Below are positions 17,125-28,850 of a stretch of DNA of 46,534 nt, piece after piece (positions within the stretch are counted from its first letter, which is position 1; every line of letters starts with the position of its first letter). A model generated the notes under the pieces. That model had not been told where the DNA came from, made no database searches, and saw nothing but the letters and a program-made list of their open reading frames with translations. The DNA comes from Candidatus Abyssobacteria bacterium SURF_5 (GTDB lineage Bacteria; Abyssobacteria; SURF-5). Location: positions 1-46,534 of the forward strand of contig QZKU01000091.1 in assembly GCA_003598085.1 (NCBI GenBank). The letters are read 5' to 3'. A program made the translations under genes and the position numbers.

Positions 17125-17219
17125 GCAGGCGCGGGTTTCAACCCCGCCCAAACATCGAACCGTGCAGTTGTCGCACGCACATCCATCAAATTCGGGCGAA
17201 CCTTTCAGACACGCCACGG
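17125..17219. repeat. REP family A, copy 1, at the 3' side of the RAYT gene
   Basis: GCGCGGGTTTCAACCCCGCCC (a palindrome) is followed by a spacer with CGTGCAGTTG and ATCCATCAAATT. The same spacer, nearly base for base, follows the palindrome at 17817 on the other side of the transposase gene. The two copies are direct repeats bracketing the gene. Confidence 0.8.
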
Positions 17220-17798
17220 TTCGTCCGCAGGGCCAGTTTTCGAAGGTGCTCCTGTATTAGGTTTCGGGTCTGCCGCAAACGGGTTTTCTCGGTCATATTC
17301 CCATTGGATAGGATTATTCACGACATACTCCCGAATGCGGTTCAGTGATTCTTCTGTGCGTATAATGTGCTCATAGTAACCGCGCTGCCAGAGAGGGGTG
17401 CCGGATGTGCTCCGTGAAGCATTAATACGGCGGGCGGAAAATGTTTTTAATGCCCTCACGATCTCGGACAGGCCATGCATCCGGATCGATATCGAACCCG
17501 CGCCCGCAGTTGTCCGAACATCTTGTGGATGCAGTAGTATGACGATGCCGTGAACGTGATTCGGCATCACAACGAAGACATCCAAACTCACGTGCGGGTA
17601 GTGGCGAGGCAAGGCAAGCCATTCTGCAAGAACCAATTGGCCAGCCTGATTCAATCGCATCTCGCTGTCCACAACATTGCCAAAAAGAAACTTCCTCTTG
17701 TAGGTGCAAAGGGTGATGAAGTAGGCGCCGGCCTGTGTGTAATCATATTCAGGAAGACGAATCGGCCGGCGCCGGAATTGATGCCGGTGGTCATTCAT
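17205..17798 (-). CDS. REP-associated tyrosine transposase (RAYT, Y1/HUH family)
   Basis: RAYTs are single-copy, domesticated relatives of IS200/IS605 transposases that cut and move REP palindromes. This 197-residue protein has the HUH motif in VVMPNHVHGIVIL (about residue 80) and the catalytic-Tyr segment REYVVNNPIQW (about 166-176). It also has TQAGAYFITLCTYKRKFLFG near the N-terminus, all typical of the family. I start it at the ATG of MNDHRHQF at 17798; an upstream in-frame extension only translates a REP palindrome. The gene is bracketed by direct copies of REP family A (17125 and 17817), and further copies occur at 18042, 21593 and 28822. It probably mobilises these non-autonomous palindromes; that is inference. 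Confidence 0.92.
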   Translation of the reverse strand: MNDHRHQFRRRPIRLPEYDYTQAGAYFITLCTYKRKFLFGNVVDSEMRLNQAGQLVLAEWLALPRHYPHVSLDVFVVMPNHVHGIVILLHPQDVRTTAGAGSISIRMHGLSEIVRALKTFSARRINASRSTSGTPLWQRGYYEHIIRTEESLNRIREYVVNNPIQWEYDRENPFAADPKPNTGAPSKTGPADEPWRV

Positions 17799-17816
17799 GC
17801 AGCCCCCCCGTTTTCT

Positions 17817-17907
17817 GTAGGGGCGGGTTTGAAACCCGCCCAATCATAGAATCGTACAGTTGCCGCACATCCATCAAATTAAGGGCAGGTTTGAAACCTG
17901 CCCCTAC
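17817..17907. repeat. REP family A, copy 2: two palindromes in inverted arrangement (BIME-like)
   Basis: GTAGGGGCGGGTTTGAAACC (17817 onward) and its inverted partner ending GAAACCTGCCCCTAC (to 17907) flank a 40-bp spacer. This matches the BIME layout of paired REPs that HUH transposases recognise. It lies directly upstream of the RAYT start. Confidence 0.85.
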
Positions 17908-18078: not shown

Positions 18079-19433
18079 ACCTTCACCGATTTCCATCTGC
18101 CGGAGAGGAATCGCAGAAACAGCACGAACGCCTTTATGTAGTGGTCGGCGAGGATGATCAGCCACACCCAGGTGATGCTGAGGCCGAGCACGTGCGCCGC
18201 TAAGAACGCCAGCGGCAGGCGGATCAGAAACATCCCGATAAACGAGGAATACAACGGCCAGCGCGTGTCGGCGGCGCCGATCAGCGCGCCCGAGAGCGCG
18301 AAATGGATCGCCATCGCGGGCTGGCACAGCGCGAGCACGCGGACGAACAGTGCCGTATAATCGACCACACCGGCCTCATTCACGTAAATCAGAGCAGTCG
18401 GCTTCGCCGCCACGAACAGAATGATCCCGATTGCCGCCATCACCCACACCGCGAGACGAGTGCATTCCCATCCCTGTGAGGCCGCGGCGGAAGGCTCCTT
18501 CGCGCCGAGCGACTGCCCGACAAGCGCCGAGGCCGCCACCGAGAAACCGAAGCCCGGCATGAACGAGAGCGACATGATATTGACGCCGATCATGTATGCG
18601 GCGAGCGGACCGGTGCCATAGCCGGTGATTATCGTCATGTACCACAGGTAACCGAGTTGGATGAGGCCGTGCTCAACCGCCGAGGGCGACCCGATCCGGA
18701 GGATTCTGGCCATCAGATCGCGCTCCATCACGAGGAGCTTCCGCGGGAGGGAAAGCATCAGTTTTCCCGTGAGGGAGAGGTAAACGAAAGCGGCGGCCTC
18801 GAGCGTGAACGCTATGATGGAAGCGATTCCCGCTCCGAGCACCCCCAACTCCGGCATTCCGAGTTTCCCGAAGATCAGCCCGTAATTGAGGATCACATTC
18901 ACCACATTCGCGCCGACGCTCACGAAAAGCGGTGTCTTGGTGTCGCCGGCCCCCCGAAGAGCCGCCGCGAAGACAAGCGCGACCACGAGGAAAAGCGTTC
19001 CCGAAACGACAACTCGGAGATACGGAACGCCGACCGCCGTTACGACCGGATCGGCTCCGAACAATCGGAACAACGAGGCGCTTCCGACAAATGTCGGGAC
19101 GGTGACAACGGCGGCAAAAACAGTTGACAGCAGCAGCGAGTGCCCGAGAACCGCGTCGGCGCGTTCCTTCTCCTGCGCGCCAATGTGGCGCGCGACCAGC
19201 GCGATTGTGCCAGTTGTGACGGCAAGCGTCAGCGCCATCACCATGTTGAACATCTGCCCGCTCACGCCCACGGCCGCCACAGCCGCCGATCCCAGCCTTC
19301 CCACCATGATCATGTCGGCAATCCAGACGAATGTGAGCAGGAGATTGTTGAGGATGACCGGCCACGCGAGCGAGAAGATCTTCCTTCTCAGAGAGGGTGC
19401 CGCCGTTGGGACAGACACGGTGCCGGTGGTCAT
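18075..19433 (-). CDS. MATE family multidrug efflux transporter
   Basis: This is a Na+- or H+-coupled exporter of the multidrug and toxic compound extrusion family. It has 452 residues and twelve hydrophobic segments in two six-helix halves. Family marks include the N-terminal LAWPVILNNLLLTF, ADMIMVGRLGSAAVAAVG in helix 2 and MPGFGFSVAASALVGQSLGA at the start of the second half. The start ATG at 19433 overlaps the uvrC stop by four bases (ATGA), so the two are translationally coupled. Coupling of DNA repair with an exporter may reflect a shared response to genotoxic compounds (inference). The stop codon lies within a REP palindrome. Substrate is unknown. Confidence 0.93.
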   Translation of the reverse strand: MTTGTVSVPTAAPSLRRKIFSLAWPVILNNLLLTFVWIADMIMVGRLGSAAVAAVGVSGQMFNMVMALTLAVTTGTIALVARHIGAQEKERADAVLGHSLLLSTVFAAVVTVPTFVGSASLFRLFGADPVVTAVGVPYLRVVVSGTLFLVVALVFAAALRGAGDTKTPLFVSVGANVVNVILNYGLIFGKLGMPELGVLGAGIASIIAFTLEAAAFVYLSLTGKLMLSLPRKLLVMERDLMARILRIGSPSAVEHGLIQLGYLWYMTIITGYGTGPLAAYMIGVNIMSLSFMPGFGFSVAASALVGQSLGAKEPSAAASQGWECTRLAVWVMAAIGIILFVAAKPTALIYVNEAGVVDYTALFVRVLALCQPAMAIHFALSGALIGAADTRWPLYSSFIGMFLIRLPLAFLAAHVLGLSITWVWLIILADHYIKAFVLFLRFLSGRWKSVKV

Positions 19434-21337
19434 TGATCGGAGCCTGCGGCGGCGCTCTGTGTGGCGGAAAGCACGAGCTTTACTTCTCGGGCAAGCCGGA
19501 GCGGAATCCCTGCCGCCGCGGCGATTTCTTCTTCGGACGCCTCAGCGGTTTTGCGGACGCTGCCGAAATGATTGAGGAGCAGGGTCCGCCGCCGCGGCCC
19601 GATCCCTCTGACCTCATCGAGGATCGAGCGGGTATGCGCGCGCGCGCGGATTTTTTTGTGGTACGAGATTGCGAACCGGTGCGCCTCATCGCGGATATGC
19701 TGCACCAGGCGCAGAGCGGGCGAGCCCGGCCGCAAAATGATGGCGTCTTTGCGGTGGGGAATATATATCTTGTCGGCCTCCTTGGTAGCGACCCCGGCAT
19801 TGCGGCGATAGAGGATGCGCTCCTTGGCGATGCCGATTGCGTCCTGCTCGATGATCTGCAAATCGTCGAGGACGCTGAGAGCGACGTTCAGCTGGCCCTT
19901 GCCGCCGTCGACCACGATGAGCGAAGGCATCGGGCCCTCTTCGATCGCGCGGGACAGGCGGCGCGTGAGCACTTCGCGCATCATTGCGTAATCGTCGGCG
20001 CCCTCGACCGTGCGCACCTTGTAGCGGCGATAGTCGGACTTCTTCGGTTTGCCGTCCTCGAAGACGACCATCGAGCCGACCGCAAGCCGCCCGGAGATAT
20101 TCGAGATATCGAACGCCTCGATGCGCTCCGGTCGCTTGTGCAGCGAAAGCGCCTGCTGGAGTTTCTCGAGCACATCGACGGAGGCCATCTCCGCCCGCTG
20201 GTGTTCTTCATACACCGTTTTCGCGTTCATCTGCGCCATGTTCAACAGGTGCTTCTTATCGCCGCGCTGCGGGACTATCACCGATACGCGCTCGCCCTTC
20301 TTTTCGGAGAGCCACTGCTCGATGGCTTCGCTGTTCTCGGGCTCGACCGGGAGCACGACTTCCTTGGGCACGGTGTGCCCGCCCGAATAGAATTGGGTGA
20401 GCATCGAGCCGAGCGCCTCCTCGAACGGCGCCTTGATTTCCGAAAAATGATATGGCATGCTGCCGACGATCTTCCCGCCTCGCACCGCCAGCACAACGAC
20501 GCCGAGACTGCCGGTCTCAGTGAGACTGCCGGTCTCAGTGAGGCTTCCGGTCTCGCGGTGGACGCCGAAGAAGTCACGGTCGATCCGGTCGGATGCGGCA
20601 ACCTTCTGGCGCTCGATCGTTTTCTCGACCGCCTGGATCTGATCTCGGTAGCGGGCGGCCACCTCGAACTGCAGGGCATCCGACGCCTCCTGCATACGAG
20701 TCTGAAGCGTCTCGAGCAGCTCCTGGTTCTTTCCCTGCAGGAACGCGATCACATTCTGCACAAGCTGGGCGTAGGTTTTCTTGTCGACCTTGCCGCAGCA
20801 CGGTCCCATGCATTTGTTCATGCCGTGATAGATGCACGGGCGCTGGCGCCGCCCGAACGTCTCGTTAGAGCATTTGCGCAGCCCGAAGTAGTTATTGATG
20901 ACCCGGTACGTCTCGCGGGCGGCGTAGGCCGATGAATAGGGGCCGAAGTACATTGCGCCGTCGCGCTTGACCGTGCGCGTTATCAGGAGGCGCGGATACT
21001 CATCCTGCAGCGTAAGCTTGAGCCGGAGAAAACTCTTGTCGTCCTTCAGCCGGAGGTTGTACTTCGGCCTGTGTTCCTTGATCGCGCTGTCTTCCAGGAT
21101 GATGGCTTCCTTCTCGGTGTCGGTGACGATGACGTCGACATCGGCCACGTGCGCCGCCAGGAACGGCGACCACACGCGCCCATCGTCGCCCTTCTGGAAG
21201 TACGAGCGAACGCGCTTACGCAGGCTCTTCGCCTTGCCGACGTAGATCACTTTGCCCCGCTCGTTTTTCATCAGGTATACGCCGGGCTGGTCGGGGAAAT
21301 TCCTGATTTTTTCGTCTATTTGGGCTGATATTTTCAT
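19430..21337 (-). CDS. uvrC: Excinuclease ABC subunit C
   Basis: UvrC makes both incisions in nucleotide excision repair after UvrAB marks damage. The 635-residue protein has the GIY-YIG nuclease near the N-terminus (GVYLMKNERGKVIYVGKAKS) and a UVR UvrB-binding helix pair around residue 210. The RNase H-like nuclease is recognisable by EAFDISNISGRLAVGSMVVF, and a C-terminal helix-hairpin-helix pair by VRGIGPRRRTLLLNHFGSV. I chose the ATG at 21337, where the family N-terminus begins; its ribosome site is weak, and the upstream extension looks non-coding. Between the UVR and RNase H domains lies an unusual in-frame tandem repeat (TETGSL). The MATE gene follows with a 4-bp overlap. Confidence 0.97.
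   Translation of the reverse strand: MKISAQIDEKIRNFPDQPGVYLMKNERGKVIYVGKAKSLRKRVRSYFQKGDDGRVWSPFLAAHVADVDVIVTDTEKEAIILEDSAIKEHRPKYNLRLKDDKSFLRLKLTLQDEYPRLLITRTVKRDGAMYFGPYSSAYAARETYRVINNYFGLRKCSNETFGRRQRPCIYHGMNKCMGPCCGKVDKKTYAQLVQNVIAFLQGKNQELLETLQTRMQEASDALQFEVAARYRDQIQAVEKTIERQKVAASDRIDRDFFGVHRETGSLTETGSLTETGSLGVVVLAVRGGKIVGSMPYHFSEIKAPFEEALGSMLTQFYSGGHTVPKEVVLPVEPENSEAIEQWLSEKKGERVSVIVPQRGDKKHLLNMAQMNAKTVYEEHQRAEMASVDVLEKLQQALSLHKRPERIEAFDISNISGRLAVGSMVVFEDGKPKKSDYRRYKVRTVEGADDYAMMREVLTRRLSRAIEEGPMPSLIVVDGGKGQLNVALSVLDDLQIIEQDAIGIAKERILYRRNAGVATKEADKIYIPHRKDAIILRPGSPALRLVQHIRDEAHRFAISYHKKIRARAHTRSILDEVRGIGPRRRTLLLNHFGSVRKTAEASEEEIAAAAGIPLRLAREVKLVLSATQSAAAGSDQ
20504..20557. repeat. 18-bp tandem repeat (3 units) inside uvrC
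   Basis: The unit GAGACTGCCGGTCTCAGT occurs twice without mismatch at 20504-20521 and 20522-20539. A third, degenerate unit (five differences) is at 20540-20557. It encodes ETGSL-TETGSL-TETGSL just after the conserved DFFGVHR, where other UvrC proteins have only a short turn. The length is a multiple of three, so copy-number change would keep the frame. Confidence 0.9.
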
Positions 21338-21668
21338 GATAAAAACTCGCGAATATCTTTCTCTGTCCTCATTATACCCCATGGCAAAGACGACGGGCAA
21401 GCAAAGATTCGGCGCCTGGCGCTCATGTAACCCCTTTACAATCTGGATGTTGCAGGTATGAAGGCGAGTCCCGCTTCTATTCACGCAAGGGACGGGAAAA
21501 AGCCTGAAGGGTCTTCTCTGTCTAACCGCAAAGGCGCAGAGGCGGAAAGATATGGCGAGAAAAAAACGAATCTGTTCCTGATGATTGTGTTGTAGGGGCG
21601 GGTTTGAAACCCGCCACTACGGAGGTATGGATTACTGCGGCCGCCAATTGGTCGCGCTTCCGCCGCCG
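21338..21668. other. 331-bp gap between uvrC and citrate synthase, carrying repeats
   Basis: There is no gene here. It holds a family C repeat (ACCGCAAAGGCGCAGAGGCG, about 21524-21545) and REP family A copy 4 (21593-21621). The minus-strand uvrC promoter should lie here, but I see no convincing pair of boxes. Confidence 0.5.
21593..21621. repeat. REP family A, copy 4
   Basis: GTAGGGGCGGGTTTGAAACC followed by CGCCACTAC forms the same palindrome as the copy beside the RAYT start, with one change in the right arm. It lies 48 bp past the citrate synthase stop codon, a typical REP position. Confidence 0.85.
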
Positions 21669-28821: not shown

Positions 28822-28850
28822 GTAGGGGCGGGTTTCAAACCCGCCCTTAC
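28822..28850. repeat. REP family A, copy 5, supplying the acylase stop codon
   Basis: GTAGGGGCGGGTTTCAAACC and CGCCCTTAC form the REP palindrome. The right end, TTA at 28847-28849, is the stop codon of the penicillin-acylase gene on the minus strand. The last residues of that protein are therefore next to, or derived from, the repeat. Confidence 0.8.

Follow-up and report, generated by a model that had tools for sequence, protein, structure and literature searches.

The uvrC gene of Candidatus Abyssobacteria bacterium SURF_5 carries a short, in-frame tandem array of 18-bp units, which we read, at a probability of roughly 80%, as an ordinary intragenic minisatellite: a surface turn that was duplicated through slippage during replication and has been tolerated. 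Within the 46,534-nucleotide stretch of DNA analyzed here (the window), TRF reports the array at positions 20504-20554, with 2.8 copies, 93% matches and a score of 88. No other tandem array in the window scores as high (the runner-up reaches 59), and the top scores in 40 dinucleotide shuffles of the window fall between 35 and 60. Read on the minus strand, the array comprises a perfect unit that lies farthest from the gene start (20504-20521), an identical unit in the middle (20522-20539), and a degenerate unit nearest the gene start (20540-20554). In the sense strand, the perfect units read GAG ACC GGC AGT CTC ACT. The degenerate unit, GAG ACC GGA AGC CTC, matches the first 15 bases of the perfect unit at 13 positions, and the period-18 identity of the perfect units extends to 20542. 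Both mismatches (GGA/GGC and AGC/AGT) are synonymous, leaving the five encoded residues unchanged across the three copies, and the array translates as R-ETGSL-T-ETGSL-T-ETGSL-G. Adjacent copies, a period that is a multiple of three, a score above chance and a preserved frame together describe an in-frame minisatellite. The original prediction, of an in-frame 18-bp repeat in uvrC with two perfect units and one degenerate unit, is confirmed by these data; its interval of 20504-20557 stands as far as 20554, the bases at 20555-20557 not matching the unit.

The gene that hosts the array is intact. It encodes an excinuclease ABC subunit C of 635 amino acids (19433-21337, minus strand, with the stop codon at 19430-19432), which the TIGR00194 family model matches at 608 bits (cut-off 285) over profile positions 3-574 of 574. 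The Pfam domains GIY-YIG, UVR, PF22920, PF08459 and HHH_5 follow one another in the expected order, and the full-length family match together with the GIY-YIG, UVR and RNase H domains identifies the protein as a member of the UvrC family. Inspection of a UvrC alignment shows that Y21, Y32, R42, E82, D410, D477, H553, C156, C168, C176 and C180, which we take to be the conserved nuclease and cysteine residues of UvrC, are all present, in columns that are invariant or nearly so. Because the frame is kept and these residues are present, nothing points to a loss of UvrC function; the intact sequence and a fold prediction (built on 41 sequences, mean pLDDT 85, pTM 0.55, with the relative placement of domains uncertain) suggest that the repeat-bearing protein most likely stays functional.

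The fold prediction also bears on where the array sits. Pfam assigns the UVR motif to residues 206-239, the RNase H-like domain PF22920 to 274-379 and the catalytic RNase H domain to 394-557, and the original prediction had set the insert between UVR and the RNase H domains. The PF22920 match, however, leaves out the start of the profile, beginning at position 10, and the fold prediction and alignment resolve the preceding residues into the first β-hairpin of this domain: a strand (254-261), the repeat loop (262-275) and the start of the next strand (276-286), the feature being placed at 20510-20578 on the minus strand. The array thus falls inside PF22920, where it separates the first strand from the second, rather than between the UVR motif and that domain; in the predicted model, the profile match simply begins past the insert, and the array is not in a linker that precedes the RNase H-like domain. 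The repeat lies at the tip of the first hairpin and apparently forms a flexible surface loop, with pLDDT values below 50 at residues 265-268 and 270-272, which are among the lowest stretches of the model. No conserved residue falls in the extended turn.

Comparison with other UvrCs shows how unusual this extension is. Between the hairpin anchors that we chose, 107 of 109 other UvrCs have 16 residues in the alignment (one of the remaining two has 18, the other 25), bearing out the earlier expectation of a short turn at this point; the SURF_5 protein has 28, or 12 more than is usual. The UvrC of a sister genus (L005), the only other one that the phylum's three genomes yielded, is 74% identical and carries QDNGSLD at the hairpin tip, which corresponds to a length of one unit. 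Since L005 and nearly all of the compared UvrCs have the one-unit length, we infer that a single unit is ancestral and that 36 bp were gained on the SURF_5 lineage. When TRF was run on the other uvrC genes, no repeat scored above 59. The only other clearly long hairpin, that of L014, has a 9-residue insert in the same place, in which TRF finds no tandem repeat. In a genome of the same family (G001), neither protein nor Pfam domain searches returned a UvrC match; UvrB is present, the neighboring MATE gene was not found either, and the missing UvrC is likely a draft gap.

A turn whose length is otherwise nearly invariant, and a peptide that is kept in all copies, would also be expected if the longer hairpin were an adaptive insert of this lineage, providing, say, an additional contact to DNA, to UvrB or to some other protein. 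Lineage-specific surface inserts are known in UvrC, among them the 16-residue insert of Deinococcus (PMC5867870). We nonetheless consider adaptation improbable, given that the longer hairpin is found in one genome only and that its simple ETGSLT sequence has low predicted order. The Deinococcus insert, moreover, was modeled on 2NRT, a structure that matches residues 388-619 of the SURF_5 protein, and therefore occupies a different site; it is genus-wide, lies in the C-terminal half and, in the available text, is not described as a tandem repeat (PMC5867870), whereas the SURF_5 insert is a tandem repeat in a single genome. Under the preferred reading of a tolerated duplication, the 12-residue extension may be neutral or mild in effect, and it might have some effect, given how little the hairpin varies in length elsewhere in UvrC.

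The differences between the copies speak to the order in which the units arose. At the two differing codons L005 has GGC and AGC, such that each type of SURF_5 copy keeps one of these bases and is derived at the other. Five such codons offer about 3.7 synonymous sites, and pS is 0.59 over the whole of uvrC between SURF_5 and L005; two synonymous differences are thus comparable to divergence between genera, a count far too small for dating. Taken together, these two substitutions suggest two steps, an older duplication that gave rise to the diverged copies and a recent one that produced the identical pair. Templated correction could be an alternative origin of one of the substitutions, acting within a small palindrome (TGAGAC-CGGCA-GTCTCA) that each perfect unit contains. 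The earlier claim of a recent expansion therefore applies to the last duplication, which left two identical copies, and not to the array as a single burst, as two synonymous changes set the third copy apart. The chance that two random changes are both synonymous is about 6%, and selection on the protein may be the reason that the copies differ at synonymous sites only, a pattern that rests on two differences. The sequence of events that we propose is that a unit of ancestral length, coding for the hairpin tip, would have been duplicated, and one copy later duplicated again, the most likely mechanisms being template switching or slipped-strand mispairing as the DNA is replicated; both duplications would have preserved the frame, and the 12 extra residues would lengthen a turn that is already flexible.

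Searches of the 5.1 Mb genome did not find the repeat unit elsewhere; off the array, we recovered one 15-mer with 1 mismatch (contig C115), which is no more than a reversed-pattern control yields. A dispersed or mobile repeat, such as a REP-like palindrome, is thereby ruled out, as the unit occurs only in the uvrC array. No match to the two-unit pattern was seen in viral contigs, and no near match to the repeat in plasmids. A DNA or RNA hairpin at the repeat was likewise rejected, the 81-nt region folding no better than shuffled sequences (z-scores of 0.35 for DNA and -0.16 for RNA). Across 1.14 Mb of the genome (60 stretches plus the window), we identified two perfect tandem duplications with periods of 18-150, the uvrC array itself and a second that lies at the start of a different gene (L171) or shortly before it; such duplications are rare in this genome, but not unique. 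That the repeat number is an artefact of assembly or sequencing, as a draft of 145 contigs might suggest, is very unlikely, as the 51-bp array is shorter than typical short reads, preserves the reading frame and contains copy-specific differences.

Other repeats were also observed. The palindrome GGCGGGTTTSAAACCCGCC, to which the palindrome of the uvrC unit is unrelated, has three copies in the window (17822-17840, 21597-21615 and 28827-28845) and about 25 in the genome, compared to none in a reversed-pattern control; an open reading frame for an IS200-like (Y1) transposase (17205-17843) overlaps the first copy, and the pairing of palindrome and transposase resembles a REP/RAYT system. Another family of palindromes, GGTGCGAATTYATTCGCAC, lies just past the 3' end of the sister-genus uvrC (L005 1360-1435) and also forms a 46-bp tandem array in the SURF_5 genome (L129 8187-8313). 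The genome further contains a CRISPR-like array with the unit GTCGCGCCCCGCGGGGGCGCGTGGATTGAAAC at a spacing of about 66 bp (L149 8539-10627), as well as a tandem array in which a 168-bp unit occurs about 7 times (L165 1-1161); this array lies in a 2040-nt open frame at a contig end and probably encodes a repeat protein.

The original prediction further proposed that the array could act as a repeat-number switch that tunes mutation or repair without a frameshift; slippage would then vary the number of ETGSLT units within populations, and with it the activity of UvrC and the rate of mutation. Adjacent identical copies such as these two, which match at 21 positions at period 18, are able to slip, and precedents exist both in the 6-bp mutL repeat of Salmonella (PMC2955026) and in tolA, where in-frame repeats have graded effects (PMC3477136). 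Several observations weigh against this proposal, which we hold to be highly improbable. Because nearly all relatives have the one-unit length, the repeat does not qualify as a conserved device; the array, besides being short, has an interrupted third copy, which resembles the synonymous interruptions that the mutL authors used to lock their repeat (PMC2955026); the older first duplication speaks against fast turnover; and the enzyme is not necessarily affected when a loop changes in frame. Among the papers searched, none reported a uvrC repeat switch, and a single repeat number was seen, in one genome of the species. As a tolerated duplication, the array is a neat case of a core repair enzyme accepting an in-frame duplication in a hairpin of nearly invariant length, and would gain greater importance only if repeat number varied within populations and altered repair.

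The known systems closest to the uvrC array, besides the Deinococcus insert, are mutL and tolA. Like uvrC, mutL of Salmonella has a short in-frame tandem repeat within a DNA-repair gene, with slippage as the supposed mechanism; three copies of its 6-bp unit give a functional protein and two a mutator, close relatives share the repeat as a conserved feature, and changes in copy number and mutability have been demonstrated (PMC2955026). That repeat sits in a lid over the ATP pocket, whereas the uvrC units are 18 bp long, include one imperfect copy, come from the sequence of one genome and map to a predicted flexible loop. A stepwise setting of UvrC efficiency by natural variation in ETGSLT number, which by analogy would make the array the equivalent of the mutL switch in nucleotide excision repair, is slightly less probable still than slippage-driven tuning in general. 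In tolA of E. coli, in-frame coding repeats can, as in uvrC, lengthen the protein without a frameshift; repeat number there varies widely among strains with measured effects (PMC3477136), whereas the uvrC repeat is known from a single genome sequence.
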